From Thermococci archaeon (GTDB taxonomy: Archaea > Hadarchaeota > B88-G9): DNA of 23,705 nt. Under the pieces are notes generated by a model. It was not told where the DNA came from. It worked only from the letters and a program-made list of their open reading frames with translations, and did no database searches. The DNA is taken from positions 1 through 23,705 of the forward strand of contig QMUK01000006.1 in the NCBI GenBank assembly GCA_003660555.1. Direction: 5' to 3'. The translations under genes and the position numbers were made by a program. Each line of letters begins with the position of its first letter. Position 1 is the first letter of the stretch. This document shows, piece by piece, positions 991 to 18,586 of the stretch.

Positions 991-1242
991 CTTTCGTTTT
1001 TCGAGCTCCTGTGACCAAACAACCCTCGATGAATCTCAGATCTTTCGAGTATGGATGGTGAATTAATTCCCCAAGGAATGCTTTGACATCCTCCTTGCAC
1101 TCACAGTGGTTCCGAAAGCGAAAATTTGGGAGAAATGTCATTTAGGTACCTAATTGCCGAATTTCAGAGCCATCGCTTAGAGTAGGAAGATCTCAACACC
1201 CAAATGCGACACCCAATATCTCAACAGAACCACAGGGAGAAA

Positions 1243-1250
1243 CCTTTATA
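1243..1250 (+). promoter_or_regulatory. TATA box of the complex I operon
   Basis: CCTTTATA stands about 26 bp before an inferred transcript start near 1273, giving a leader of about 12 nt to the ATG at 1285. The same geometry recurs at several other genes in the window. It also rules out the upstream in-frame ATG at 1204 as the start of the first gene. Confidence 0.65.
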
Positions 1251-1284
1251 CCTAGAGACTGAGCCAAGGGCGGGGTCAGAAGTA

Positions 1285-1656
1285 ATGCCTACTCAGGAAT
1301 ACCTCGGCCTAGTCTTCTTCGCAGTCATATCTTTCGTAGCAATTTTCTCATCGATACTGGCCCCAAAGCTATTTTCACCCAGTGGCCTCTTCCCTATAAT
1401 AAACAAGAAACACAGAAGGAGTAAGGAGATATACAAGTACGAGCCATATGAATGCGGTGAATTACCAATAGGAGAAATAGTCAAATTCGAAGTGGAGTAC
1501 TACCTATACCCCCTCTTCTTCTTGGCCTTAGATGTTCTTCTAGTCTTTCTTTACTTATGGTCACTTTTGCCTGTTGGATATTTGCCCGTAATAGCCCTTT
1601 CCATAGCTATTTATCCGTTAATCGAGCTAAGGAAGGTGGAGAAATGGACAAAGTGA
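1285..1656 (+). CDS. nuoA: NADH-quinone oxidoreductase-like (complex I) subunit A
   Basis: This 123-residue membrane subunit is the usual length for NuoA. It has three hydrophobic helices, at roughly residues 8-28, 70-90 and 93-110. The hallmark loop between helices 1 and 2 reads [12 protein letters not shown] and contains the conserved Cys of the A-subunit loop near the quinone channel. It helps form the junction between the hydrophilic arm and the proton-pumping membrane arm. The frame is open upstream to an ATG at 1204, but that lies before the TATA box, so the ATG at 1285 is chosen. It is the first gene of the operon, and its last 13 bases overlap subunit B. Its function follows from the family and from the complete operon around it. 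Confidence 0.92.
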
Positions 1657-2114
1657 GGGAACTACTCACTAAGATATTCAGGGCAGCTCTGGGCTGGGAA
1701 GTGAGGTGGGCGATAAGGAGATCTCCTTGGATGCTCCATTTCGGAATGAGATGCTGTGCCCTAGAGATACCACTGGCTGTAGCAGCCTCCAGATTCGATC
1801 AGGAGAGATGGGGAGTGATTCCCCCCTCCAGTCCTAGGCAAGTAGACATCCTCGTGGTGAATGGAACAGTCACGAAGAAGATGGCTCACAGCATAAAAAT
1901 ACTCTATGATCAAATGCCGGAGCCGAAATTCGTCATGGCTGTTGGAGAGTGCGCCATTTGTGGCGGACCATTCAAGGACTCATATAGTGTGGTTCCCGGA
2001 GTAGACAAAGTAATTCCAGTAGATATATACGTCCCGGGATGCCCACCAAGGCCTGAAGCATTCATAAAAGCGATAGAAGACTTTAGAAGGGGAATTTGGG
2101 GGATCTCCGAGTGA
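1644..2114 (+). CDS. nuoB: Complex I subunit B (N2 iron-sulfur cluster subunit)
   Basis: This soluble subunit of 156 residues carries the terminal [4Fe-4S] cluster N2, which passes electrons to quinone. The expected ligands are all present: the neighbouring pair Cys37-Cys38 (RCCALE), Cys103 (GECAICGG) and Cys133 (PGCPPRPE). Cys106 is extra and gives the second motif a look closer to that of membrane hydrogenase small subunits. The ATG at 1644 follows a GGTGGAG ribosome site and is preferred over TTG/ATG codons further upstream that lie deep inside nuoA. It overlaps nuoA by 13 bases and shares GTGA with the start of the next gene, so translation is probably coupled. Confidence 0.94.
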
Positions 2115-3664
2115 AGGAAGAAGAACTATTATCTGAAAGAGGGAAGGAAGTGAAACTCGAGATATCCCCAGAAGAGATAAGGAGCTTGTCCTCCAAACTT
2201 CTCAAGGAAAGACATCAATTCTTGGGAATAACCGCAGTGGATTTCCCAAGAGAAAACAAAATAGAATTGATATATCACTTCGCATCCCTAGAGGATTCCA
2301 CCTTTATCTGGGCTAGGCTGGAACTCAATAGAGAGTCTCCTGAAGTCCCTACTATTTCCGACATATATCCCGGAGCGGACTGGCATGAGAGAGAGGCTTA
2401 CGATTTATTCGGAGTTATTTTCACAGGAAGAGAAGAATTGAAAAGAATTCTTCTGCCAGATGACTGGATAGGACACCCCCTAAGAAAAGATTATTCTGGA
2501 GATGAATACGATTGGCAATCGCAAACCAAAGAATTCTACTATCCGTTCGGAACTGTGAAGGAGAAAATTAAGGAGGAGGACGGAGTATTTTATCTGCACG
2601 TAGGTCCACAGCACCCAGTCACTCATGGCCTCTGGAGACTTCAACTCAAGGTTAGAGGAGACACCATACTAGAGGGAACCCCGGACATAGGGTACATACA
2701 CTGCGGCATAGAGAAGCTCTGCGAGGGGTTGAACTACGAACAGATAGTCCCCTTATCAGAGAGAATATGCTATGGTTCTGGAATGAGTTGGTCCATGCTA
2801 TATGTCTTGGGAGTCGAGAGTCTCCTAGGGGTTGAACCCCCTGAGAGAGCCCAATACATAAGAACCATTGTCTTAGAGCTTCAGAGGATAACTTCTCACT
2901 TACTCTGGCTAGGAGCTTTCTGTCCAGACTTAGGCACGTATCACTCCATGTTGTTGTATGCCATAAGAGAAAGGGAGAAGTTCTTGGACATATTCGAGAG
3001 AATTACCGGTGGCAGACTCTTGTACAATTATCCCAGAATCGGAGGAGTTTCCAGAGACATCGACGATAGAACAATAGAAAAGATAAAGGAAACACTAAAA
3101 GACTTGGAATCACACCTAGAAGAATATGAAGACATCCTGGACAAAAACGAGTTCTTTTTGGTTAGAACTAAAGGAGTAGGGGTTCTAAGGGGAGAGGAAG
3201 CCATAAGATGGGGACTAACAGGCCCTTGTCTTAGAGCAGCCGGATTCAAGTACGACGTTAGGAAGAACTCACCATATCTTTTGTATGCTGACCTAGACTT
3301 CGAAATACCAGTTTACAAGGAAGGAGACGTCTATTCCAGATACAGAGTAAGAATTGAAGAAATGAGAGAGAGCTCCAAGATAATAAACCAACTAATAGAT
3401 GAAATACCCAAAGGAGAGTATAGGAAAAAGGTGAACTTGAGGAACGTGGAGGGAGAAATAGCCTTCAGGACCGAGGACCCTCGGGGAGAGTCCATGGTCT
3501 ACATATTGGCTAAGGGGGGAGAGAAACCCCACAGAGTGAAGTTCAGGAGTCCAGCTTACATGAATCTCTCAGCTTTGAGGAGAATGCTTCCAGGACATAA
3601 AGTAGCTGACATGGCAGCCATAGTAGGCTCCATAGACCTGTGCATGGGGGAGGTAGACAGATGA
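2111..3664 (+). CDS. nuoCD: Complex I fused subunits C and D (quinone-site subunit)
   Basis: This is a 517-residue fusion. Residues 1 to about 145 are NuoC-like ([17 protein letters not shown], then HPLRKDY); residues about 160-517 are NuoD-like (GPQHPVTHG with His168, YNYPRIGGV). In complex I, the His of GPQHP and the Tyr of the RxDY motif line the quinone head-group pocket. Here the latter motif reads RICY, so the usual Asp is replaced by Cys220 while Tyr221 is kept. The C-terminus reads DLCMGEVDR, with Cys511 where complex I usually has a non-Cys residue. Both positions correspond to nickel-iron ligand positions of related hydrogenases, but the second Cys of each pair is absent. The GTG at 2111 overlaps the nuoB stop as GTGA and is preferred to the TTG at 2096. 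C-D fusions are also known in bacteria. Confidence 0.93.
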
Positions 3665-4638
3665 CGCTCCAAGACCTCTTGATCTACTTGCCTAGATTTG
3701 TCCTGACATCCATACTGATCTTACTCATATTCTCAGTGGACCTGATAATGATAATATGGTTCGAGAGAAAGCTAATAGGCAGAATACATCACAGGAGATC
3801 TATTACAGAGACTGGACCCTTTGGATTGCTCCAAAACATAGCGGACTTCATAAAATTGATGGTAAAGGAGGACTTGATCCCGAAGAAAGCAAATAGGATA
3901 ATACACGATTTAACACCACCGTTGATTGCCTTCTCCGGAATCCTGCCATTGGCTCTAATACCCTTCTCGAGTGAAATATACGTCTCGAATCCTGAGAATT
4001 CCCTGCTATTAGTACTGGCTATTTGTTCAATATCTCCATTCTTCGTGCTCCTTGCTGGGATTGGAAGCGGAAGCAAATATCCAGTAATAGGAGGATTCAG
4101 GGCAGCTCTGCAAATGGTTTCATACGAGATACCCCTTGTGCTCTCTGCCCTAGGAGTCGTAATGCTCAGCGGGACGTTCAATCTCATGGAAATAGTTCGC
4201 TCTCAGGTGGAGAACACTTGGTATTTGTTCCTTCAACCGCTTGGTTTCTTCATATTCCTCTCTTCTTCTATAATGGAAAACGAGAGGTCACCATTTGACA
4301 TCCCAGAGGCAGAAAGTGAATTAGTTGCTGGATGGAGGACGGAGTTCTCCTCAATAAAGTTCGGACTCATCATGGGATCGGAATACATGAAGATGTTCGT
4401 CAACTCTGCTCTCGTAACCCTTCTGTACTTGGGGGGATGGGATGGTCCACTCCTTCCCGAGATTTTCTGGTTCCTCTTGAAGGTCCACTTAATCATATTC
4501 TTGTTCATCTGGATCAGAGTTACCCTAATGAGGCTTAGAATGGATCAACTCCTAAAACTGAGTTGGAATTATCTAATACCACTCTCTCTACTGAACTTAC
4601 TTCTAACAATAGTTGAGAAGGTGATGATAGGTGCTTAG
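3661..4638 (+). CDS. nuoH: Complex I subunit H (membrane anchor at the quinone channel)
   Basis: This 325-residue protein has about eight membrane helices. It links the hydrophilic arm to the pump modules and forms much of the quinone tunnel. Family signatures are FERKLIGR, GPFGLLQNIAD and the acidic loop NERSPFDIPEAESELVAGW. The first cytoplasmic loop is unusual: where most NuoH proteins have an RxGPN motif, this one reads HHRRSITET before GPFG. The ATG at 3661 overlaps the nuoCD stop as ATGA, so an ATG 21 bases upstream is not used. The end overlaps nuoI by eight bases. Confidence 0.93.
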   Translation: MTLQDLLIYLPRFVLTSILILLIFSVDLIMIIWFERKLIGRIHHRRSITETGPFGLLQNIADFIKLMVKEDLIPKKANRIIHDLTPPLIAFSGILPLALIPFSSEIYVSNPENSLLLVLAICSISPFFVLLAGIGSGSKYPVIGGFRAALQMVSYEIPLVLSALGVVMLSGTFNLMEIVRSQVENTWYLFLQPLGFFIFLSSSIMENERSPFDIPEAESELVAGWRTEFSSIKFGLIMGSEYMKMFVNSALVTLLYLGGWDGPLLPEIFWFLLKVHLIIFLFIWIRVTLMRLRMDQLLKLSWNYLIPLSLLNLLLTIVEKVMIGA

Positions 4639-5236
4639 CCCACTGAGGAGAACTATAGCTTACGTCTTCAGAAGACCATTCACGGTGATGATTCCGAGAG
4701 AGACACTAGAATTACCCGATGGATACAGGGGAATTCACGAGATAAACACTGACACTTGTATAGGATGCGGGTTATGCGGGAAAATTTGCCCAAACAAAGC
4801 CATAGACTACGTGTTTCCAGAGGGAAAGAATCCATACGATCCTAAGAACTTCAGGCTGAGGAGACCTGCAATAGATCTCGGACACTGCATGTTCTGTGCA
4901 TTGTGCGAAGAGGTGTGTCCAACTAATTCCATAAAACTGACTAAAGAGTTTCAACTATATGGGAAAAAGAGAATAGACCTAATTAGACTCCCATACGAGT
5001 TGGAATCTAGGAAAGAGAAAAGAAAAGAGTACTCCAGAGATGAGAGAGCCAAGATGCTGATATCCACTGAACTAATATCCAGAATATCGCCGGAAGTGAA
5101 ACAAATAGAGGAAAAGTGGAGGAAGGTCACGATCTCATACTACAATGGAGAGATCTCAGAGGAGGAATACAAATCAGCAATAGCTAAGATAGAATCCGAG
5201 TACCTAGAAAAACTGAGGGAGGTGGGCATACTTTGA
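4631..5236 (+). CDS. nuoI: Complex I subunit I (two [4Fe-4S] ferredoxin-like subunit)
   Basis: This 201-residue protein has two full 4Fe-4S motifs: Cys43/46/49/53 (CIGCGLCGKICP) and Cys86/89/92/96 (CMFCALCEEVCP). It carries clusters N6a and N6b, which feed N2 in subunit B. After the conserved core, near residue 140, comes a charged helical tail of about 60 residues. The tail ends in a short-helix segment NGEISEEEYKSAIAKIE that reads like a SHOCT-type hairpin. Many NuoI proteins stop earlier. The GTG start at 4631 follows an AGGTG ribosome site inside the end of nuoH. Because no E, F or G subunit is encoded here, this protein is a plausible docking point for an external donor such as ferredoxin; that is inference. 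Confidence 0.92.
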   Translation: MLSPLRRTIAYVFRRPFTVMIPRETLELPDGYRGIHEINTDTCIGCGLCGKICPNKAIDYVFPEGKNPYDPKNFRLRRPAIDLGHCMFCALCEEVCPTNSIKLTKEFQLYGKKRIDLIRLPYELESRKEKRKEYSRDERAKMLISTELISRISPEVKQIEEKWRKVTISYYNGEISEEEYKSAIAKIESEYLEKLREVGIL

Positions 5237-5700
5237 AGGATATATTATTGTCGTTGTTCTCCTCGATAGTTCTCTTATCAGCAATTTTCTCTCTAGAAGA
5301 GAAGAAACTCTTATACTCAGTTGCCCTCTTCTCGGCTTTCCTAACACTTTTCTCAGTGTACTACTTTTACCTAGGGGTTGAATTCCTAGGAGTAGTTCAA
5401 CTTCTAGTTTACGCTGGAGGTGTAACTGTGCTAATGCTATTCTCCCTGATGCTTGCTCCGGAAGTAGATGAGAAGCTATCAATCGACAGAAGAAGAGGAC
5501 TCCTATCCCTCCTAGTTTTACCTCCAATAATGTACTGGGCGACTAGACTTGGGAGCAGGTCGAATTTCCCTCTTTTGGATACTAAGGACATCTCTAGGAA
5601 CATCTCTGATCACTACGTCTTAGTATTGCTGATCTCACTTTTGATAGTCTCCGTAATAATCTCCATTTCATCTATACTTGGAGGTGAGAAGGAGAAATGA
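5233..5700 (+). CDS. nuoJ: Complex I subunit J
   Basis: This 155-residue membrane protein has five predicted helices. The conserved helix 3 reads VQLLVYAGGVTVLMLF, the stretch that carries the pi-bulge thought to move during coupling in complex I. The start is a TTG at 5233 that overlaps the nuoI stop as TTGA. A strong SD site, GGAGGTG at 5218-5224, stands eight bases before it. Length and position between I and K fit the family. Confidence 0.9.
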   Translation: MKDILLSLFSSIVLLSAIFSLEEKKLLYSVALFSAFLTLFSVYYFYLGVEFLGVVQLLVYAGGVTVLMLFSLMLAPEVDEKLSIDRRRGLLSLLVLPPIMYWATRLGSRSNFPLLDTKDISRNISDHYVLVLLISLLIVSVIISISSILGGEKEK

Positions 5701-6005
5701 GTACTCTACTAATGGTATCGTCTCTCCTGTTAGTAATAGGAATATATGGCCTCTTGACGAGGAATAACCCAATTCTAATGATAATATCAATTGAATTAAT
5801 ATTTAACGGGGCTAATTTGAATTTAGTACACTTCAGTAGGCTTTACAACTCCATGGATGGAATATCCTTGGCTTTGTTCTCAATAGCGATAGCAGCCATA
5901 GAGGTAGCCCTAGGATTGGGCATATTCCTGGCCCTATACAAACTGGAAAGGAAAACCGAGTTGAGAAAGTTCAGGAGACTCTCCGATGAGGAGGTGAGTG
6001 CTTGA
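5697..6005 (+). CDS. nuoK: Complex I subunit K
   Basis: This 102-residue protein with three helices is related to the MrpC subunit of Na+/H+ antiporters. The two buried glutamates needed for proton transfer in the family are present, Glu33 (SIELIFNGANLN) and Glu69 (AIEVALGLGIF). The ATG overlaps the nuoJ stop as ATGA. A short charged cytoplasmic tail of about 17 residues follows the last helix, and the ribosome site of nuoL lies in the codons for that tail. Confidence 0.93.
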   Translation: MSTLLMVSSLLLVIGIYGLLTRNNPILMIISIELIFNGANLNLVHFSRLYNSMDGISLALFSIAIAAIEVALGLGIFLALYKLERKTELRKFRRLSDEEVSA

Positions 6006-7708
6006 ACCTAGAGATACTGCTTATCCTAACCCCTGCATTCCCCCTACTCTCCTTTCCCTTATCTCTCTTCTTCGGAAAAAGAACTCCAGGCCAAGGAGCA
6101 GTATTCGGGATACTTTCATCTCTTGCCTCTTTGATCACATCTACATATTTGTTCTTTTTTGCAGGAAAACCTATCTCATTTGAGAAGGAGTGGATTCCTG
6201 GATTCACTTCAGGTCTTTACTTAGACGAACTGTCTTCCGTAATGCTAATGATAGTCTCCGGAATCTCACTGCTTGTAAACGTTTACTCCTTAGGATACAT
6301 GCACGGAGAGGAAGGGCTTCCCAGATACTACGGAGAGTTGTCTCTCTTCACAGGAAGCATGCTAGTCCTAGTCCTAGCGAAGGACTTCCTTATTCTGTTC
6401 GTATCTTGGGAATTAGTTGGTTTATGTTCCTATCTTCTGATAGGATTTTGGTACAAGAGAGAAGAGGTGGCTAAGGCTGCTAAGAAAGCCTTTGTAGTGA
6501 CTAGGTTCGGAGACTCGTTTATGCTCCTTGGTATAATCTTAATGTACGTCAGTAATGGAACCCTCGATCTAGTAGAGATAAACTCTCACGCGAGGGAAAT
6601 GTCCTCTCTCCTAATAGCCCTTCTACTGTTTTCCGGCGCCATAGGAAAGTCCGCTCAAGTCCCTCTCTTGGGATGGCTCTGGGACGCCATGGAAGGTCCC
6701 ACTACTGTTAGTTGTCTAATACACTCTGCCACTATGGTCAAAGCTGGAGTATATCTAGTCGCTAGACTATTCCCCTATTTCTCGGAATCCGGAGCTCTGC
6801 CAGTAGTAGCGTACTTCGGAGCATTCACGGCAATAGTGTCCGCGACAATGGCCTTGGTGGAATGGGACATAAAGAGGGTCTTGGCATTCTCCACTATAAG
6901 TCAACTCGGGTACATGTTCCTAGCTCTTGGAGTCGGAAGCTATGAGTCCTCTATTTCTCATTTAATTAGTCACTCTAGTTTCAAGGCACTCTTATTCCTA
7001 GGTGCAGGGAGCGTCATACATGCAGTCGGCTCTAGGGACATGAGGTCAATGGGGGGATTACTGAAAGCGATGCCCATAACCTCTACGGGAATGCTAATAG
7101 GAGTACTCTCCCTATCTGGGATTCCACCCTTCTCTGGATATTTCAGTAAAGAAGCAGTTATGCATTCAGTAATGGAGAACGGGAACATACTCCTATACTC
7201 AATTGGAACATTAACTGCATTCTTAACGGCTTTTTACTCACTCAGAATGTGGATTCTTACATTTTTGGGTCCTACTAAGAAGGAGATAAAGGAGTCCCCG
7301 AGTGTGATGACTCTTCCAATCATAGTCCTCATGGTTTCGACTGCCACTCTCGGATTGTTCATTCATTCTGGCGGTGGAACACCATATCCGCTTCTATTGG
7401 CCATCGCTGGATTGATTCTCTCTTATAGATACCACAATGCTTTCCTGAGAGCAGGTCCGCTCTCTACTTTGCTAAGCAAGAGGTACTTCCTAGACGAACT
7501 GTACGATCTAATAGGAAATTGCTTCTTCTCTGCAGGTAAGGCACTAGATCTCCTCGATAGACAAGGAATAGATGGAACAGTGAATTGGATCTCCTCTTCA
7601 ACTCTAAACATTGGAGATAAGATTAGGAGACTCCAAACTGGAGAGATACAACTCTATCTTCTCCTAATAGTAATCGGAGCTTTGGTACTATTAATAATGA
7701 CGTGGTGA
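6002..7708 (+). CDS. nuoL: Complex I subunit L (distal proton-pump module)
   Basis: This 568-residue antiporter-like subunit is somewhat shorter than the 600-plus residues usual for NuoL. Pump signatures are a glutamate in the LFVSWELVGLCSYLLIG helix, a lysine in AIGKSAQVPL, and the HSATMVKAGVYLVAR helix. The usual LPDAM of the family reads LWDAM here (GWLWDAMEGPTTVS). The C-terminus still contains a helical section after residue 490 and ends in a hydrophobic helix, consistent with a lateral helix HL. The TTG start at 6002 overlaps the nuoK stop as TTGA and stands five bases after GGAGGTG. Confidence 0.92.
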   Translation: MNLEILLILTPAFPLLSFPLSLFFGKRTPGQGAVFGILSSLASLITSTYLFFFAGKPISFEKEWIPGFTSGLYLDELSSVMLMIVSGISLLVNVYSLGYMHGEEGLPRYYGELSLFTGSMLVLVLAKDFLILFVSWELVGLCSYLLIGFWYKREEVAKAAKKAFVVTRFGDSFMLLGIILMYVSNGTLDLVEINSHAREMSSLLIALLLFSGAIGKSAQVPLLGWLWDAMEGPTTVSCLIHSATMVKAGVYLVARLFPYFSESGALPVVAYFGAFTAIVSATMALVEWDIKRVLAFSTISQLGYMFLALGVGSYESSISHLISHSSFKALLFLGAGSVIHAVGSRDMRSMGGLLKAMPITSTGMLIGVLSLSGIPPFSGYFSKEAVMHSVMENGNILLYSIGTLTAFLTAFYSLRMWILTFLGPTKKEIKESPSVMTLPIIVLMVSTATLGLFIHSGGGTPYPLLLAIAGLILSYRYHNAFLRAGPLSTLLSKRYFLDELYDLIGNCFFSAGKALDLLDRQGIDGTVNWISSSTLNIGDKIRRLQTGEIQLYLLLIVIGALVLLIMTW

Positions 7709-7714
7709 TGGGAA

Positions 7715-9115
7715 ATGCTCGTTTCCATACTAGTTTGGCTCCCTCTCGTGTGCTCGCCCCTAGTATATCTTTCTTCGAAGTTAAGGAAAGGACTTCCGAG
7801 AAATCTGGCTATTTCGGTCTCCTTATTGACTTTTTTGCTTTCTCTACTTGTGATAGGGAGTGAGACCCATGAAGATTGGATACCATCTCTTGGGATTAGC
7901 TATCACCTCAGAGTTGATGGAATAAGCTATGTAATGGTCATATTAACTACTTTCATCATGTTAGCTTCTATCTTAGCTAGTTCCACCGAGATTAAAGAGA
8001 GAGAAGGAGAATACTACGCACTCTTGCTTTTAACCGAGACAGGAATCTTGGGAGTTTTCACGGCAGTGGATCTGATCCTATTCTACTTCTTCTGGGAGAT
8101 AGTCCTCATCCCCATGTTCTTCATAATACTGATCTGGGGAGAGGAGAGGAGAAGGTATGCTGCCATGAAGTTCCTCATATACACGCATCTCGGAAGTTTA
8201 CTGATGATCATAGGATTTTTCTATGCTTACTGGTCATACTACGACTTATTTGGAAAGTATACTTTCAATTTATTTGAATTGTGGAAAATAGAGGATTTCA
8301 TGAGTCAAAGTGAACTGAAACTCCTGTATTTCTTGGTGTTCATGGGATTCGCTGTGAAAGCCCCAATAGTCCCATTGCACACATGGCTCCCAGATGCCCA
8401 TGTAGAAGCTCCTTCCCCGGGTTCAGTTATACTAGCAGGTCTCCTCCTGAAAATGGGAGGATACGGTCTCTTGAGAATCCTTCCAACACTTCTCCCAGAG
8501 ACATTCCATGAAATGTCCGTTTTGCTGGCTTCACTCGGAGTGATTAGTGTATTCTATTCCGCCATGGTTGCCATGGTCCAGGAAGACCTGAAGAGGCTAA
8601 TAGCCTATTCTAGCATAAGCCACATGGGCATAGCTGTAACTGCAATAGCCTCTGAAACCTCATTGGGGACGAAGGGCGCGATTTACATGATGTTCAGTCA
8701 CGCCCTAATCAATGGACTAATGTTCCTACTCTCCGGAGCATATAAGAGAAGATTCCACACTAGAGAAATCTCAGAAATAGGGAAATACGAGGCCCCAATC
8801 CTCTCGTCATTACTGGTGTTCGGAGCATTTGCATCTTCTGGATTACCTGGCCTCTCAGGATTCATAGCCGAAATACTCTCCTTTATGGGAGTGTTTAATA
8901 GATGGGAAACTAGCATTTGGTTTCTGGTTCTGTCTGCAGTAGTTACAGCTGGATATATGCTCCATATGGTGAAAAGAGTAGTGTTCGGAGAGAAAATGGG
9001 CGAAGTCGAAGATCTATCGCGTGAAGAGCTTCTACCACTCGCCATGTTGGTCACTGGGATATTACTACTCGGATTAGTCCCGTCTCTACTGTTAGGTCCT
9101 CTGGAGGGAGTGTGA
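7715..9115 (+). CDS. nuoM: Complex I subunit M (proton-pump module)
   Basis: This 466-residue antiporter-like membrane protein keeps the glutamate of FFWEIVLIPMFFIILIWG, the lysine of FAVKAPIVPLHTWLPDAH, and the second lysine in ILAGLLLKMGGYG. These residues form the proton path in this family. The ATG at 7715 is six bases after the nuoL stop and follows GGTGAT, so it is spaced rather than overlapped, unlike most joints in the operon. Length and motifs are normal for NuoM. Confidence 0.94.
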   Translation: MLVSILVWLPLVCSPLVYLSSKLRKGLPRNLAISVSLLTFLLSLLVIGSETHEDWIPSLGISYHLRVDGISYVMVILTTFIMLASILASSTEIKEREGEYYALLLLTETGILGVFTAVDLILFYFFWEIVLIPMFFIILIWGEERRRYAAMKFLIYTHLGSLLMIIGFFYAYWSYYDLFGKYTFNLFELWKIEDFMSQSELKLLYFLVFMGFAVKAPIVPLHTWLPDAHVEAPSPGSVILAGLLLKMGGYGLLRILPTLLPETFHEMSVLLASLGVISVFYSAMVAMVQEDLKRLIAYSSISHMGIAVTAIASETSLGTKGAIYMMFSHALINGLMFLLSGAYKRRFHTREISEIGKYEAPILSSLLVFGAFASSGLPGLSGFIAEILSFMGVFNRWETSIWFLVLSAVVTAGYMLHMVKRVVFGEKMGEVEDLSREELLPLAMLVTGILLLGLVPSLLLGPLEGV

Positions 9116-10404
9116 TGTACCTAGAGATGTCCCTAGTATTGATATCTGCCTCAGCATTCCTAGGACACTTATTTGGCAGGAAAGCGTCTCTACCATTTTT
9201 GATACTCTCCGTACCTTTACTCTTGGAGTCGGAGACGACGAGAATTTCACACTTCTTCTTTGATGAATACTCCAAGTTGCTCTCGGTCTTGGTCGTCTCG
9301 GTCACCATATTGGTCTCTATCACAACAGAGGAAAGGGAGAGATCAGCTCAGACACTTCTGTCAATTTCAGCACTCGGAATAATTCTAGCTCTATCGTCCA
9401 AGGACTTCCTGAGTTTGTTCGTTTCTTGGGAAATAGCTAGCGTCACCACCTATGCCATGGTTGCCGTGGGCAGAGGAAGAGAGGAGCTAGAGGCAGGAAT
9501 GAAGTACTTCCTCTTCGGAGTCACTTCCTCTGGAGTAATGCTCTTCGGTATCTCCATAATATACGGAGAAAACGGAACGCTCTCCATAATTAACTCTGGA
9601 TTCGGTATTGGACAAGCTCTCTTCTTAGCCGGAATATTATTCAAAATAGGAGCTTTTCCCTTCCACGTCTGGATACCAGACGTTTATCAAGGGGCGAGAA
9701 GTTGGACTACATCTTTTTTGGCTGGAGCCTCAAAGGTAATGGGATTCGGAGTTCTAGTCCGGTCGTCCTACCTAATGGGGTTAAACGGTATGGATTTGTT
9801 CTTCCTCCTATCTATTTTGACAATGTTCTATGGGAACTTAGCGGCTTTGCTTCAGAAGGACATAAAGAGACTCCTGGCCTATTCAAGTATAGGGCATGCT
9901 GGCTACCTCTTAATACCCCTCTCTGTTTGGAACCCAAGGGCTCTAACTGGGGCCCTGATGCACATAGTAATGCACTCCCTACTCAAGGTCGGTGCATTCT
10001 CTACTGTTCTAATACACGAAAAAGAACTGGGAAGGGGAATAAAGGACTACAAAGGCATGGATAAGTATTCTAAACTATCTCTAACGATCATCTTGCTGGG
10101 ATTGGCCGGAGTCCCCTTAGTGGGAGGAGGGGGGTTCTGGAGCAAGTACGTCCTCTTCATGGGGGCGTTGGCTTCAGGCACTAGGGGACTAGCACTGGCC
10201 TTAGGGGGCATTCTAACAAGTGCTATATCTTTGTACTACTATGCGAGAGTGATAAGGGAGATTTACTCCACACCTGGAAGTGAGGAAGTCCCAGGTAAGG
10301 TCTTAGTCCCCCTCACAATAACGGTAACGGTTTTGCTCTTAGGTCTTTACCCAACACCGCTGATAGAGATCTGCCAAAAGGTTTCGACTACCCTCTTTCC
10401 CTAA
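9115..10404 (+). CDS. nuoN: Complex I subunit N (proton-pump module)
   Basis: This 429-residue antiporter-like subunit is shorter than bacterial NuoN (about 480); the N-terminal helices look reduced. The pump motifs are LFVSWEIASVTTYAMVAVG with its glutamate, LFKIGAFPFHVWIPDVYQGA with its lysine, and the LLAYSSIGHAGY helix. The usual GxPPxxGF loop reads GVPLVGGGGFW. Two starts touch the nuoM stop: GTG at 9112 and ATG at 9115. The ATG is chosen because GGAGGGA then lies five bases away, as at nuoL. It is the last gene of the complex I operon; no electron-input subunit follows. Confidence 0.9.
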   Translation: MYLEMSLVLISASAFLGHLFGRKASLPFLILSVPLLLESETTRISHFFFDEYSKLLSVLVVSVTILVSITTEERERSAQTLLSISALGIILALSSKDFLSLFVSWEIASVTTYAMVAVGRGREELEAGMKYFLFGVTSSGVMLFGISIIYGENGTLSIINSGFGIGQALFLAGILFKIGAFPFHVWIPDVYQGARSWTTSFLAGASKVMGFGVLVRSSYLMGLNGMDLFFLLSILTMFYGNLAALLQKDIKRLLAYSSIGHAGYLLIPLSVWNPRALTGALMHIVMHSLLKVGAFSTVLIHEKELGRGIKDYKGMDKYSKLSLTIILLGLAGVPLVGGGGFWSKYVLFMGALASGTRGLALALGGILTSAISLYYYARVIREIYSTPGSEEVPGKVLVPLTITVTVLLLGLYPTPLIEICQKVSTTLFP

Positions 10405-11146: not shown

Positions 11147-12022
11147 CTAAATTGTCTCTTTTTTTATTCTCTCTTTCGCCAGCTCTAGATACCTCTCCTC
11201 TGAGTCTATCCCGATGAAATGTCTCCCAGTTTTGAGAGCAACTACGCAAGTAGTGCCAGATCCGACGAATGGATCTAGGACAACGTCCCCCTTAAAGGAA
11301 TACAGTTGTATACACCTGTACGCCAATTCCTCAGGAAATGGTGCTGGATGCCCTATTTTTTTGGCAGACTCTGGAGGAAATCTCCACACGCTCCTAGTAT
11401 ACAGTAAAAATTCGTCTCTCGAAATGGTGTCTTCTCCTCTCTTTTCTCTCTTGAAAGACTCCTTTGACATCACTATGATGTACTCATGCTGATCTCTGAG
11501 CACTGGATTCACAGCTGACATCCAGGATCCCCAAGCTGTAGAGGACCCACTCACAGCATCTCCTTTATCCCAGATTATCTCTCCGCGAAGGAGGTAACCT
11601 ATTTCTTCGAAAACTCTTATCAGATAAGAGTGAAGAGGGATGTATGGTCTCCTACCTAGGTTGGCCACGTTGAAGCACACCCTTCCTCCGGTGACCAATA
11701 CCCTGTATACCTCCTTCATCACCGATTCCATGAACTCTAGGTATTCCTCTAAAGACAAATCTTCGTCGTACTCCTTACCTACGTTATATGGAGGAGAGGT
11801 TATCATGAGATGTATGCATCTATCAGGCAATTTTCGGAGAACTTCTCTGGCATCTCCGAGGATCAACTTATCCAAATACTCACGAGGCACCTCATTTTCA
11901 TGTCTACTCGTATTAGTCCTATCTCCAATCCCATTGTATAGTTTCCTGGAGTAAAATGTAGATGAATCATGGCTCTCTCTTTTAGGAACACCGAAGTCAC
12001 TGGTACTACTCCTCCTGCCCAT
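11147..12022 (-). CDS. DNA methyltransferase, probably N4-cytosine type (beta class)
   Basis: An S-adenosylmethionine-dependent DNA methylase. The catalytic motif IV, TSPPYN, comes first; the SAM-binding motif DPFVGSGTT comes near the C-terminus, the order of beta-class enzymes. SPPY is more usual in N4-cytosine than in N6-adenine methylases. The core runs from LDKLILGDA to the end; the first 45 or so residues are a Ser/Arg-rich leader of no recognised type. The ATG at 12022 follows a purine-rich GGAAGAGGGGAG site; an in-frame TTG at 12049 and a GTG near the core are alternatives. No restriction endonuclease is encoded beside it, so it may be an orphan methylase that marks the host genome. 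The recognition site cannot be read from the sequence. Confidence 0.85.
   Translation of the reverse strand: MGRRSSTSDFGVPKRESHDSSTFYSRKLYNGIGDRTNTSRHENEVPREYLDKLILGDAREVLRKLPDRCIHLMITSPPYNVGKEYDEDLSLEEYLEFMESVMKEVYRVLVTGGRVCFNVANLGRRPYIPLHSYLIRVFEEIGYLLRGEIIWDKGDAVSGSSTAWGSWMSAVNPVLRDQHEYIIVMSKESFKREKRGEDTISRDEFLLYTRSVWRFPPESAKKIGHPAPFPEELAYRCIQLYSFKGDVVLDPFVGSGTTCVVALKTGRHFIGIDSEERYLELAKERIKKETI
11159..11165 (+). terminator. T-run terminator after the lipoprotein gene
   Basis: Seven consecutive T bases, in a pyrimidine-rich stretch, follow the lipoprotein stop by 13 bases. Archaeal RNA polymerase commonly stops at such runs without a hairpin. The run lies inside the last codons of the convergent methyltransferase, where it encodes lysines. 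Confidence 0.5.
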
Positions 12023-12079
12023 ACTTCTCCCCTCTTCCTTTAGTTCCAAATCCCGATCGATTCACTTCTTCGGTAAGAG

Positions 12080-12108: not shown

Positions 12109-12186
12109 GGGCCCGTGGCTCAGCCAGGATAGAGCGGCGGCCTCCTAAGCCGTCGGTCCCGGGTTCAAATCCCGGCGGGCCCGCCA
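12109..12186 (+). tRNA. tRNA-Arg (anticodon CCT)
   Basis: A complete 78-base cloverleaf with an encoded CCA end. The acceptor stem is GGGCCCG pairing with CGGGCCC, the D stem GCTC/GAGC, the anticodon stem GCGGC/GCCGT with loop CTCCTAA, and the T stem CCGGG/CCCGG around TTCAAAT. The anticodon CCT reads AGG, a very common arginine codon in the neighbouring genes. No intron is visible and no repeated 3' end was seen nearby, so it shows no sign of being an integration site. Confidence 0.97.
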
Positions 12187-12340: not shown

Positions 12341-15106
12341 ATGCCCCTGGGCGGAGGGATGCTGGAATTAGTCACATCTGAAGACGGAAGACTTCTGGGG
12401 ATAAAGTCACCCTCCGAAGGTATAGAGAAAAAATTTGGAAGAGAAGAGATTTATCTGAACAATAATTTGCTGGAAAACTCTCGATTGAAAACAAAAGACG
12501 AGAAGGAGATTATAACGATTTTCGAGGGGAAAAATGGAAAATTGGAAAGGAGAATTCATTTGAACGAGGACAAGTTGGTGGTATCTATTGAGGGAAACGG
12601 GGAGATAAGATGGTATCTCTGGGAAATAGGAGACGATCAGCATATCTTGTTGAGAAGGGAAGTTCCTAGTTCAGATCCCATAAAAGACTTGTACGATACT
12701 AGGGAAGTCTCAGGAGAGACTCTATTACCCGAGGTTTACTTTCAGGAGAGGGACACAGAGGGTAGAATGCTGGAGATACACAGCGTTAAAGGTACTCTGA
12801 TAATAAAGGGTGTGAGAAGGCTGAGAATAAGGAACGATGAGTCCATAGTCCAGAGCTCCAAGGAACAAAGCAGAATAATACCTCCTGCAGGAATAGAAAT
12901 CATAGGAGAAAATAAAATAGAAGTCGAAATGTGGCTAGAGGCTCCATATAAAAGGAAGGTAATCAAGAGAGCTATAATATACGATGAGGATGATTTGGAG
13001 TCAATTGCAGCAGCTCTATCTGTACCTCCGCCCGAAGCGGGAGAAATACCAGATCCTACGTTCAGGGTGACTCTAGTAGATAGGCTGAACTTCATCCCGG
13101 TTTATCCTAGTGGAATACATCCCAGTCTACTAGAAGACAGGGACGAGGTGATAATACTCCTACCGAGTGAAAAAGCTAAAGGCATAACATCACACCTGAA
13201 GAAAATAGGAAAGAAATACCACTTGGTTAGGAGACCATACAGAGAAAAATTGTACGATCTCTTTGGACTCAAACCAAGGGAAGACTACGTCATAATCTCT
13301 AGGAGAAACCTGAGGGAAATATGCCTGCTGGCTCCATTGGCTAGATACCTCTCGATTCCGATTTACTTTGAAGACGAAGAAATTCCGAGAGGAGCAAAAG
13401 TACTCATAGACACCTCAAAGGGAGGAAAACTAACCCAAAAAGACATTTTTAGATTATTCTCGAATTTGTTATACGTGGATTCGGTTGTGCACAACTTCCG
13501 AGCCACTGAGATACTATGCAAGAGAATAGTAGGTCATGGTCAACTCAGGAGAGTTAGGCCTCACAGGATCCTAATGGAAATGGACGAATTCAGAGAATTA
13601 GAGGAAAAACTCAGAGAAGGAAAGAAGCTAAGCGATTACTCTCTGGAAATATCTAGGAAAATACCATTCGTAATTAAGAGAGGCAGAGTACTCGCAATAT
13701 TATGTACATCTGAGGAAGAATTGGTCAACGCCTCCAATTACTCCTATTTCTCCATGGCACCCTTGCTATACTTCGAAGTAAATAGGGATTACTTAGACAA
13801 GATAAGAGAGAAAATAGATGACTTCCTGAGAATAGATCCAATCTCCACCGAAGGAGAGCTGCTCAGGAGGACACTCATAAAAAGCATGGGAAGCCTGCTA
13901 CAAAGGGGAATGCCAAAATACGCCTCTTCGACCCTTGAGGAACTTTCCCCACAGTATCTGACAGTAATATCGGAGAATGAGATTCCATTTGAGTTCCTTC
14001 CTAACAGGGGAAGAGCTTGGTACAACACCTACTCTATGGGAAGGCTAAAGGGAAGGAATCCGATAGAGACTTCACTAATAATGAAGAGGAGTATGGAAAA
14101 AGAACTTTCTCCTAAGTTCAGAGCCCTCTTCCTTTTTGATCCCAGGATGAGAACTTCATTCGATGAAGTATCTATGATAATGGACTTGACTAAAGAGTTA
14201 TTTGAAGAAGCCAGAGCTTCCTTCTTGGGAGATGCAGAAGGCCATTATGAAATAGTGCATTTCTCTGGGCACAGTGACGACGACGGAATATATCTCCTAA
14301 GAGGAAAGTCGAATAGCATTCCAGCAAAAGGAGAAGTCTTTTTTGCAAATTCGTGTAACTCTGGAATATGGGGAGAGGGAAAACTTCCCAAGAGAACTCT
14401 CGAATCTGGATTCATATCCTATATAGGCAACAGATGGAAACTAGACTCAGGTAGAGCTATGAGAGTGGCAGAGGGATTCTACAAATTACTATCCATGGGA
14501 GCCAGTATAGGCCTAGCGCTGAAAATAGCTAAGTCAATAGATGAATTCACGTCCTCTTGCTACGTCCTCTATGGGGACCCAACCATGAGAATAAGGAGGG
14601 CAGTGAGTCCTCATCTTCTAATTTGTAACTGCGAGATAGATCTCAGTACCGAAATCGGAACTATAGAGGAGAAAATAGTCAATTTAGAGACCAAGCCATT
14701 TGGATGGCTATTCGATCTCCCAAGGAACTTCTCAGGAATAGACGTCCATAAAATATGGGACGACATAGGAGAAATAGTCCTAAACGGAGAAATAACTGTA
14801 ATAAGGAACAGGTACTCACTTCTTCCTGGAGAGGAGTACTCTTATACAATGGAATTTACGGTAAAACCAAAAAGAAAGAGCATAAGGTCTTGGGAATTCT
14901 CTTGGACGCATCCCCTTGGAGAAGATCACCTCACCGGATTAGTCGAGTCCTACACGATAAGAATAACTTTACCAGAGGGAGCCATACTGGAGAGAGCCAA
15001 TCCCAGGCCGAGCTCTCTCTTTGAGGGGGACAGAACGGAGTTAGTTTACAGGGGTGAGAGGTTCAGAGGAGAGAGATTGAACGTATCACTGGACTACTAC
15101 TGGTGA
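12341..15106 (+). CDS. CHAT-domain (caspase-like) cysteine peptidase with accessory domains
   Basis: This 921-residue protein has no signal peptide or membrane helix. Residues 1 to about 210 are beta-rich. Residues about 230-360 look Rossmann-like (YVIISRRNL, then APLARYLSIPIYF), similar in pattern to the CWB2 type of repeat domain. The CHAT domain spans about 525-755. It opens with LTVISENEIPFEFL, matching the usual CHAT strand before the substrate groove. It then has VHFSGHSDDDG with His644, and FFANSCNSG with Cys672, followed by the GFISYIGNRW, AEGFYKLLSMGASIGLALKIA and LYGDP blocks of the family. His644 and Cys672 form the expected catalytic pair. Residues about 790-921 form a beta domain that resembles the outside domain of the next gene product. 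The ATG at 12341 is chosen because the next ATG, at 12359, has its ribosome site directly abutting it. Substrate unknown. Confidence 0.85.
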   Translation: MPLGGGMLELVTSEDGRLLGIKSPSEGIEKKFGREEIYLNNNLLENSRLKTKDEKEIITIFEGKNGKLERRIHLNEDKLVVSIEGNGEIRWYLWEIGDDQHILLRREVPSSDPIKDLYDTREVSGETLLPEVYFQERDTEGRMLEIHSVKGTLIIKGVRRLRIRNDESIVQSSKEQSRIIPPAGIEIIGENKIEVEMWLEAPYKRKVIKRAIIYDEDDLESIAAALSVPPPEAGEIPDPTFRVTLVDRLNFIPVYPSGIHPSLLEDRDEVIILLPSEKAKGITSHLKKIGKKYHLVRRPYREKLYDLFGLKPREDYVIISRRNLREICLLAPLARYLSIPIYFEDEEIPRGAKVLIDTSKGGKLTQKDIFRLFSNLLYVDSVVHNFRATEILCKRIVGHGQLRRVRPHRILMEMDEFRELEEKLREGKKLSDYSLEISRKIPFVIKRGRVLAILCTSEEELVNASNYSYFSMAPLLYFEVNRDYLDKIREKIDDFLRIDPISTEGELLRRTLIKSMGSLLQRGMPKYASSTLEELSPQYLTVISENEIPFEFLPNRGRAWYNTYSMGRLKGRNPIETSLIMKRSMEKELSPKFRALFLFDPRMRTSFDEVSMIMDLTKELFEEARASFLGDAEGHYEIVHFSGHSDDDGIYLLRGKSNSIPAKGEVFFANSCNSGIWGEGKLPKRTLESGFISYIGNRWKLDSGRAMRVAEGFYKLLSMGASIGLALKIAKSIDEFTSSCYVLYGDPTMRIRRAVSPHLLICNCEIDLSTEIGTIEEKIVNLETKPFGWLFDLPRNFSGIDVHKIWDDIGEIVLNGEITVIRNRYSLLPGEEYSYTMEFTVKPKRKSIRSWEFSWTHPLGEDHLTGLVESYTIRITLPEGAILERANPRPSSLFEGDRTELVYRGERFRGERLNVSLDYYW

Positions 15107-15160: not shown

Positions 15161-16003
15161 ATGCATGTTCCCCTCCTGATTGCCACAATTGTAATCACAG
15201 CGGGCGCGACGTACCTAGAGATAGATGAGACCGGAGATTGCTTAGAGGAAACTGTAATCATGATAAAAAACGTGGATGAAAGCCCAATTTGGGAAGTAGA
15301 GATAGAAATTGGACAGGCGGATAGTGTAGTAGTGATGGAAAAAGGAGAATTCGTGCATTCGGAATACGATCCGCCGTACCTCAAAGTAAAATTCGAAGAA
15401 AATCCCATATTGCCCGGAACCATTAGGGAACTCTCCATCTACAAGAACTACGTATCCAAGGCCAGATATGAGAGAGAAATAGACAGTTGGCACCTCAGGT
15501 ATTATCCTGAAAATGATCCAGCAGTCTTACTAATAACACTTCCAAAAGGAGCGGAACTCCTTCCGAATTCTAACAGACCAGAGAAAATATTTGTTAGAAA
15601 TGGGAGAATGGTTCTAGAATTTAGGAGAAATTCCACCTGGAAAAACATAGACATATATTACAAGATAAATCCAGAGCTCATGGCTGAAGAAAGTAGAGGC
15701 TACTGGATGAAGATAATTCCAATAGCGTCAGCACTTCTTGTGTTGTCTCTCATCATATCCATAAGGAGTAAAAGGAAAGCAAAAGAGTTAGCAGTGAAAT
15801 TAATGAGAGGAGACGAGAGAAAGATAGTTGAGATCCTAATGAATAGCGGTGGGGAGCTCACTCAAACAGAAATATGTAAAGAGACAGGATTTTCTAAAGC
15901 CAAAGTATCCAGATTACTAGATGAACTAGAGAAGAGAGGAGTGGTAGAAAGAAGAGAAATAGGCAGATTAAAATTCGTTAGACTTAGGGGTGATTTGAGT
16001 TGA
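15161..16003 (+). CDS. Membrane-spanning transcription regulator with outside beta domain and inside winged helix
   Basis: This 280-residue protein starts with a short signal or anchor segment (PLLIATIVITAGATYL). Residues about 20-180 form a beta-rich domain that should lie outside the cell. One membrane helix follows at about 184-204 (KIIPIASALLVLSLIISI), then basic residues, then a winged-helix DNA-binding domain at about 215-278 with TQTEICKETGFSKAKVSRLL and the wing VVERREIGRLKFVRL, a MarR/IclR-like layout. It is thus a one-component sensor that could act while anchored or after release. Its outside domain shares the pattern ITLPxGAxL, then Pro, Phe, and a GR or DR turn, with the last domain of the CHAT peptidase encoded just before it. 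The ATG at 15161 may be leaderless. Its stop overlaps the next gene. Ligand and target genes are unknown. Confidence 0.8.
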   Translation: MHVPLLIATIVITAGATYLEIDETGDCLEETVIMIKNVDESPIWEVEIEIGQADSVVVMEKGEFVHSEYDPPYLKVKFEENPILPGTIRELSIYKNYVSKARYEREIDSWHLRYYPENDPAVLLITLPKGAELLPNSNRPEKIFVRNGRMVLEFRRNSTWKNIDIYYKINPELMAEESRGYWMKIIPIASALLVLSLIISIRSKRKAKELAVKLMRGDERKIVEILMNSGGELTQTEICKETGFSKAKVSRLLDELEKRGVVERREIGRLKFVRLRGDLS

Positions 16004-16926
16004 ATTCAAAGCTAACACTCTCCTTGGTGTTCGCACTCATACTAATCGGAAGTTCCCTAGCTCTACCATTTGGAAAGCCAAAGGTAGAGGTGAAACTCAA
16101 TCCAAAAGACGCCAGAGTTGGATCTCCAATTTTCTTGACTGTATACCTAGAGAACGAGGACAAGCCAAAGGAGAGATTCGTAGTTTCCCTCAGGCTACCC
16201 CGAGGGATATTCTCTCCTAATCCAATTCAGAGTGTGACTCTCTTGCAGGGAGAAAGAAAAGCAGTTAAGTTCGTGTTAATCCCAAAGAGACCAGGACCTA
16301 CACGTTTCCTTCTAGAAGTCACGTCCGATGAAAGAGGAAGAATTCTCAGGAGGGAAATTCCACTACTGGTAGGAAGGCCTAGGACCCTAATAGAACCTAG
16401 AATCCTCAGGGCAGAAATTCCCATAGGAGGAGAGAGGAGTCTGACTTTCAGGATGAAGAGACCAGTTGGGATTGAAATAGAACCAGTAAAGACACGAGGT
16501 TTCGAAATAGAGCTAAAAGAAGTTAATCTCACCACAGGGATTGTTGAAATTGAGATAAGGGCACCAGAAAATATAGAGCCAGGGGAATACGTCTCAGCTC
16601 TATTATTGAGGCACGAAGGTGGAGAAGAAGTGGTTCCATTATTACTAGAGGCAATTGGGCCACGAGAAATGACTTTCGAGGTAGAGGACGGAACACTAGA
16701 ACTTAGATTGAAAATACTCTCAGCGAACAAAGAGATATCTGTTGAGGTAATTCCTCCCGGAGAAGCCAGTCCAGAAATATACGAAATAACCGAAGAGAGA
16801 TTTGGTTCGAGGAATACGATCAAATTGCATGGATACTTGTATATTTATAGGAATCCTCCTCCCGGAACTTGGAGGTTAGTGACCCACGTTCCTACCTATT
16901 TGGTGGTAGAGAAAAGAAGAAGATGA
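16000..16926 (+). CDS. Secreted beta-sandwich protein of unknown function
   Basis: This 308-residue protein has an N-terminal signal peptide (LTLSLVFALILIGSSLA) and no further membrane helix. The rest consists of about three beta-rich units of immunoglobulin/CARDB-like character. They are recognisable from repeated strands such as SPIFLTVYLENEDKPKERF, from phrases like IEPGEYVSALLL, and from the near absence of cysteine. There are no catalytic motifs. The start is the TTG at 16000, overlapping the preceding stop as TTGA, with GGGGTG seven bases before the codon. Translation is therefore probably coupled to the membrane regulator, and the product could be its outside partner, ligand presenter or scaffold; that is inference. 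Confidence 0.72.
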   Translation: MNSKLTLSLVFALILIGSSLALPFGKPKVEVKLNPKDARVGSPIFLTVYLENEDKPKERFVVSLRLPRGIFSPNPIQSVTLLQGERKAVKFVLIPKRPGPTRFLLEVTSDERGRILRREIPLLVGRPRTLIEPRILRAEIPIGGERSLTFRMKRPVGIEIEPVKTRGFEIELKEVNLTTGIVEIEIRAPENIEPGEYVSALLLRHEGGEEVVPLLLEAIGPREMTFEVEDGTLELRLKILSANKEISVEVIPPGEASPEIYEITEERFGSRNTIKLHGYLYIYRNPPPGTWRLVTHVPTYLVVEKRRR

Positions 16927-17659: not shown

Positions 17660-17692
17660 CATCCTTATGGAATGACTAAGGCTGGTGATCAA

Positions 17693-18586
17693 TTGTCCAC
17701 AGATAGAACTCTGTTGGTGGCATCTCTACTAATCAATTTGACACTGCTTACTGCTTTCCTATCCTTCTTCCAAGAAGCAAATTCTACAATAAAACGACTG
17801 AATGAAAACATAGAGTCAATGAACTACGAGTTAGAAAGCCTAAGGAGTGAAAAGGAGTATCTAGAAATGAAAATAGAGAACTGCGAGATGATGAATGAGA
17901 GCTACAGGGAGCAAGTAGAGTACTATAGGGCCAAACTCAAGGAGGTCATATATTCTAGGCCGGAAGTGACTTACAGAGCGAGAGCTGAGATAGAAGTTCC
18001 AGCAGTAATAGAAGGAGAAAGGAAAGGTGCTATGATCTCGATTGGAGTGGAGATAATTCCTGGAGAGGGCAGAGTCCTAGTCCAAACCAAACCTAAGATG
18101 GGCTATTCATTCCAAGAAATGGCAGAAGTATCTGTAGAGGTTGCAGAAATGGTGACTGAAGTATCATTGGAGGGGAACGATGTGATATTCTACATAGAAG
18201 GTTCAGAATCAATAGAAAGAGTAGATGGACCAAGCGCAGGAGCAGCTATGGCAATAATAACTATTGCGGCTATACAAGGGAAGGAAATAAGGGAAGGGAT
18301 AACTATAACGGGTAGTCTCCTTCCAAATGGAGAAATAGGTCCGGTAGGTGGGCTAAAGGAGAAAATGGAGATAGCCAAGGCATCTGGATATCACACGATA
18401 CTTCTCCCTTTAAACGATTACGTGAGCGTAGTCAGAGAGAGGGAGAGATCCCCCCTGCCAGGAGTAAGGATAAAAGAGAAATTCGTGGAGAACATCCCCA
18501 TTTCAGAGTATGCTAGAGAAATAGGGATAAACGCTGTATTCGTGGATAACATTTTCCAGGCTATGAGCTACTTGATAGAGGACTAA
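17693..18586 (+). CDS. Membrane-anchored Lon-type (S16) serine peptidase without ATPase
   Basis: A 297-residue protein with an N-terminal membrane helix (LLVASLLINLTLLTAFLSFF), a coiled coil at about residues 28-80 (IESMNYELESLRSEKEYLEM), and an S16 peptidase domain. The catalytic Ser is Ser181 in VDGPSAGAA. The catalytic Lys is Lys224 in GGLKEK, 43 residues later, the same spacing as in E. coli Lon by my count of the remembered sequence. No AAA+ ATPase or Walker motif is present, so it probably cuts exposed or already unfolded proteins. It matches the archaeal group of stand-alone S16-like peptidases often listed as COG1750 (from memory). The coiled coil may drive assembly. With only one N-terminal helix, the side of the membrane on which it acts is uncertain. 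It ends 26 bases inside the convergent DNA ligase gene. Confidence 0.87.
   Translation: MSTDRTLLVASLLINLTLLTAFLSFFQEANSTIKRLNENIESMNYELESLRSEKEYLEMKIENCEMMNESYREQVEYYRAKLKEVIYSRPEVTYRARAEIEVPAVIEGERKGAMISIGVEIIPGEGRVLVQTKPKMGYSFQEMAEVSVEVAEMVTEVSLEGNDVIFYIEGSESIERVDGPSAGAAMAIITIAAIQGKEIREGITITGSLLPNGEIGPVGGLKEKMEIAKASGYHTILLPLNDYVSVVRERERSPLPGVRIKEKFVENIPISEYAREIGINAVFVDNIFQAMSYLIED

Follow-up and report, generated by a model that had tools for sequence, protein, structure and literature searches.

The window, a stretch of 23,705 nucleotides from the genome of an uncultured archaeon, contains an uninterrupted reading frame of 921 codons that encodes a multidomain protein (Table 1). The first ATG of this frame lies a few bases downstream of AGGGG; translation may also begin at codon 7, a second in-frame ATG. 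Since no signal peptide or transmembrane (TM) segment was found (top 19-residue hydropathy value of 1.18), the protein is most likely cytosolic. The base composition of its gene resembles that of the host, and a search for an internal duplication of the peptidase domain within the protein found none. Judged from its sequence, this is a soluble protein whose C-terminal part contains a highly diverged relative of CHAT-family peptidases. Upstream in the window are a Complex I-like cluster (1204-10404, +) with fused NuoC/NuoD, in which NuoE/F/G were not seen (based on ORF reading rather than a family search), a KAP P-loop NTPase gene of the PifA/QatA-like type (2-907, -) that is cut by the contig end and possibly acquired (GC 34% vs 43-45% nearby), and an orphan type II DNA methyltransferase gene (11147-12049, -) adjoining tRNA-Arg(CCT) (12109-12186), with no restriction enzyme seen. 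Downstream, the gene at 17672-18586 (+) encodes a coiled-coil protein anchored in the membrane, which has a catalytic domain of Lon type (S16) and lacks an ATPase.

Table 1. Features of the 921-residue protein and of its downstream neighbours (positions in the window; residue numbers in parentheses).
Feature	Position	Strand	Evidence or remark
Multidomain protein (921 residues)	12341..15106	+	No signal peptide, no transmembrane segment
N-terminal segment (1-215), possibly beta-rich	12341..12985	+	Low-confidence secondary structure; no profile match
Alternating alpha/beta segment (267-360) with APLARYL	13139..13420	+	MAFFT alignment to haloarchaeal family; not significant by HMM/hhalign
Predicted CHAT-type peptidase domain (544-753)	13970..14599	+	hhalign against archaeal CHAT (1.7e-15) and bacterial CHAT (2.8e-13)
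IPFE motif (548-551), equivalent of CHAT P[W/F]E	13982..13993	+	Alignments; in 0/5 C25 sequences
His644, predicted catalytic	14270..14272	+	Alignments
Cys672, predicted nucleophile	14354..14356	+	Alignments
GDP closing motif (745-747), common to CHAT and C25	14573..14581	+	Alignments
C-terminal segment (755-921), beta-rich by low-confidence model	14603..15103	+	Weak Ribophorin I match (E 0.065)
Neighbour: signal peptide, ectodomain, TM (183-201), cytosolic winged helix DUF7343 (217-275); candidate partner	15161..16003	+	Paralogues elsewhere in genome
Neighbour: secreted/anchored protein, possibly Ig-like	16000..16926	+	No significant Pfam match; start overlaps previous stop

Single-model searches placed the protein close to two peptidase families without reaching the curated cut-off of either: Pfam CHAT (PF12770) aligned to residues 670-731 (E=0.0085; 16.0 bits vs a cut-off of 24) and Pfam Peptidase_C25 (PF01364) to residues 630-751 (E=0.014; 15.1 bits vs a cut-off of 23). 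No match was found in NCBIfam, and no similar sequence in the PDB. Profile comparison (hhalign) was performed with residues 479-767 as the query against four alignments: a haloarchaeal CHAT-like family (A1), bacterial CHAT (A3), C25 from the same phylum (A5) and archaeal CHAT (A6). The resulting E-values were 1.7e-15 for archaeal CHAT, 2.8e-13 for bacterial CHAT (with the P[W/F]E block included in the match), 2.2e-9 for the haloarchaeal family and 2.8e-9 for C25. Shuffled queries (100 per profile; A1, A3 and A5) gave a best E of 0.013, and never fell below 0.036 against bacterial CHAT; nine other proteins of the window reached 0.038 at best against the same profiles. Because the observed values lie far beyond both sets of controls, membership of clan CD is, at the level of sequence comparison, secure. 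In the search against the CHAT Pfam family that the earlier note had proposed as a check, the protein stayed below the cut-off; for the clan, it is the profile-profile comparison that is decisive.

The two residues named in that note, His644 in HFSGHS and Cys672 in ANSCNSG, were found at exactly those positions. They occur in the order expected of CHAT, aligning with the catalytic columns of bacterial CHAT, archaeal CHAT and the haloarchaeal family, and by this alignment are predicted to form the catalytic dyad. The further conserved blocks also match, namely IPFE, the strand leading into HFSGH, NSCNSG, the C-terminal helices and YVLYGDP (741-747). IPFE aligns with the P[W/F]E block present in most of the CHAT domains compared.

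The assignment to CHAT within clan CD is a matter of degree. The protein could instead be non-secreted and either a divergent member of the gingipain-like C25 family or a sister to it, with the same His/Cys chemistry in a different family. The Pfam C25 match is almost level with that to CHAT, the hhalign value against C25 is itself low, YVLYGDPTMR resembles the ends of C25 domains, and the same genome encodes a bona fide C25 peptidase. In a maximum-likelihood tree with midpoint rooting, the window domain fell beside the five C25 sequences (95/87) with a branch length of 1.88 changes per column, a placement that is unsure because the branches are long. Against C25, CHAT profiles outscored it at matched depth (five-row profiles; medians of 1.1e-11 and 6.9e-11 for CHAT vs 2.8e-9 for C25), none of the five C25 sequences has the IPFE block, and a signal-like N-terminus, absent from the 921-residue protein, is present in those C25 proteins for which the start was read. 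Nor was the N-terminal subdomain that precedes the catalytic one in C25 found, residues 216-400 giving E 0.61 against the C25 profile. Our judgement is that the domain is, with good confidence, a very divergent CHAT-type peptidase near the CHAT/C25 boundary, and that C25 membership is unlikely. Of the original reading as a CHAT peptidase, the caspase-like clan CD domain with its His/Cys dyad stands on the profile evidence, and the choice of CHAT over C25 is favoured, not proven. The C25 peptidase of the same genome (contig C9, L066:1208-3835) is gingipain-like with a signal-like N-terminus.

Loss of catalysis, leaving a caspase-like scaffold or sensor that only binds peptides or partners, would fit the extreme divergence of the protein, the failure to detect kin in the phylum, and a His-Cys spacing that is unusually short, at 28 residues vs 34-72 in CHAT, 30-43 in C25 and 31 in the haloarchaeal family. 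A dyad-less relative also exists. However, the dyad and the blocks around each of its two residues remain intact in a sequence that elsewhere retains only about 20-25% identity, and we regard a dead enzyme as distinctly improbable. Among the 14 members of the haloarchaeal family, 13 keep both residues and one has lost both; such joint retention or loss fits the expectation for a working dyad. In the exception (L017:3947-5971), whose gene comes after that of an ATP-binding protein, the catalytic His is replaced by Asp and the Cys by Pro, and its product is likely a pseudo-enzyme.

Outside the peptidase domain, residues 1-545 and 755-921 had no significant family match in Pfam and profile searches. 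This is consistent with the earlier observation that the N-terminal part is free of TPR and WD repeats. Its further description as containing a beta-rich domain and a Rossmann/CWB2-like section fared less well: the former is seen only in a low-confidence model, the latter amounts to one motif with no statistical support, and CW_binding_2 (PF04122) had no match in residues 240-400 at E<=1. A comparison with a CWB2 protein of the same genome likewise revealed no relation. AlphaFold models built without homologues had a mean pLDDT of 40.4 for residues 479-767 and 34.6 for the whole protein; at this low confidence, they suggest strands in 1-215, alternating helices and strands in 267-360, helices in 366-545 and strands in 815-920. 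The motif APLARYL (332-338) aligns with the APLAYYL block found in the haloarchaeal family, and in each case the same Leu is followed, at a distance of 47 residues, by a conserved Asp. Despite this equal spacing, N-terminal homology to the family was not accepted, as it was not significant: residues 1-570 against the A1 HMM gave E 0.054 for one sequence (score of -2.4 vs up to 4.9 for shuffles), and hhalign gave E 0.05-0.11. The idea that the C-terminal segment duplicates the ectodomain of the neighbouring regulator was also not accepted (a short match with E of about 0.01 and no shuffle control).

No match to the protein was found in the 27 other genomes of its phylum that were searched, and a search of genome contigs with its full sequence returned no close relative, as did the same search with DNA ligase. 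In the wider archaeal sample, a 681-residue protein of genome G130 matched residues 609-739 (E 5e-7, 28% identity) and, used as a query in turn, retrieved 25 haloarchaeal plasmid records; no better relative was found in the phylum of G130, and no gene neighbourhood is conserved with it. A CHAT protein of Hymenobacter matched residues 607-752 (E 5e-5), and a search for viral or phage kin found none. The Pfam CHAT model matched at E<=0.001 in 13 of 394 sampled archaeal genomes (about 3%), in several families; Methanosarcina acetivorans, among the controls, also has a match. Two haloarchaeal relatives are already annotated as 'CHAT domain-containing' or 'caspase family' and most others as 'hypothetical'; no paper on them was found in the open-access literature. 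With these genomes, many haloarchaeal plasmids and two annotated relatives to hand, the novelty of CHAT in archaea had been overstated. CHAT is already known in archaea; what was matched in none of the genomes searched is the architecture of the 921-residue protein.

At 6 of the 13 haloarchaeal loci (plasmid loci L011, L015, L018, L020, L022 and L024), a DUF7504 (PF24336) gene stands immediately before the CHAT-like gene on the same strand, DUF7504 being fused to HalOD1 in two. This pair is recurrent and apparently undescribed, with no mention of DUF7504 found in the open-access literature.

The gene for a membrane-tethered winged-helix regulator lies 55 bp downstream of the 921-codon frame, in the same direction, and its TM segment is followed by RSKRK and then the winged helix. 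Given this topology, a cytosolic peptidase could reach the stretch between the TM segment and the winged helix. Co-transcription in an operon is not certain because of a T6 run within the 55-bp gap. Three further copies of the regulator or of its winged helix occur in the genome; the surroundings of the two full-length paralogues, where read, contain no adjoining CHAT gene and no conserved neighbourhood, and the pairing of a CHAT gene with the regulator was not seen in any second genome. One paralogue (contig C2, L063:2879-4591) is directly followed by a gene whose product has a signal peptide and matches CWB2 just under the cut-off (E 1.4e-4).

A point of comparison for function is Csx29, whose CHAT domain has an H615/C658 dyad, is allosterically activated through its TPR region, and cuts Csx30, a sigma-factor inhibitor, once (PMC10028731). 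As this is established for Csx29, a gated endopeptidase making limited cuts is a likely mode for the archaeal protein also, and we consider it rather probable that the latter is a cytosolic, gated, CHAT-type clan CD cysteine endopeptidase that cuts a specific protein in a limited way. By analogy with the N-terminal domains of Csx29, its large N-terminal part may sense a ligand or partner and keep the active site off until triggered, whereupon the peptidase would make a limited cut in its target. As a substrate, the most testable candidate is the neighbouring regulator, cut in its juxtamembrane stretch on the cytosolic side; its release would alter transcription; that this regulator is in fact the substrate has only a small chance of being correct.

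The protein could alternatively be a defence or cell-death effector; it would then detect infection through its N-terminal part and use the peptidase either to kill the cell or to activate a partner. Bacterial conflict systems use CHAT as an effector (PMC10907252; PMC10028731), the distribution of the 921-residue protein is patchy, and the window holds other genes of mobile or defence type (the KAP NTPase and the orphan DNA methylase beside a tRNA). However, PADLOC returned no match for the protein, no STAND/NACHT or TPR domain was detected, no known effector partner adjoins it, its base composition is host-like and its nearest neighbours look regulatory or secreted. We regard a role in defence or cell death as quite doubtful.

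Returning to the gated endopeptidase, the points counted against the mechanism are the spacing of 28, the C25-side tree position, the Pfam scores below cut-off, the low pLDDT of the structure models, the regulator paralogues with no CHAT gene and the T6 run. In its full form, in which a lineage at the CHAT/C25 boundary with a sensor architecture of its own frees a membrane-tethered archaeal transcription regulator by a cut on the cytosolic side, we hold it to be highly improbable. To the best of our knowledge, proteolytic release of such a regulator by a peptidase of this kind is a route undescribed in archaea, and we know of no archaeal CHAT peptidase that has yet been tested. In bacterial defence, CHAT peptidases serve as switchable proteases; separase, a similar enzyme, works in eukaryotic chromosome separation. 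If the peptidase does cut the neighbouring tethered regulator, archaea would have a regulated-proteolysis signalling pathway; its position between CHAT and C25 in sequence could, in addition, help to root that part of the clan. What stands at present is a well-supported domain assignment from sequence. The earlier note was right in outline, and overstated the case for the N-terminus and for novelty.

Compared with known systems, the 921-residue protein is a new protease variant, probably a regulated one, and not a new kind of system. With the haloarchaeal/archaeal CHAT-like family (A1; P0002 and plasmid proteins), it shares a CHAT-type C-terminal half with the dyad (E 2.2e-9) and a long TPR-free N-terminal part with APLAxYL 47 residues ahead of a conserved Asp; unlike it, members of that family have no P[W/F]E, an N-terminal half with no significant similarity to its own, a different and shorter C-terminal extension, and genes that often lie behind a DUF7504 gene. 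With C25 (PF01364), it has in common the clan CD dyad, the LxGDP ending and a profile E of 2.8e-9, whereas C25 has no P[W/F]E, has a signal-like N-terminus where the start was read, and is without the unrelated 545-residue front. With CHAT (PF12770; Csx29/TPR-CHAT, separase-like), it differs in falling below the single-sequence cut-off, in its H-C spacing of 28 and in having no detected TPR, WD or STAND domain, yet it shares the P[W/F]E block, the catalytic His in an HxxxH-type block, the catalytic Cys in NAC/NSC, the closing GD(P) and a profile E of 1e-13 to 1e-15.
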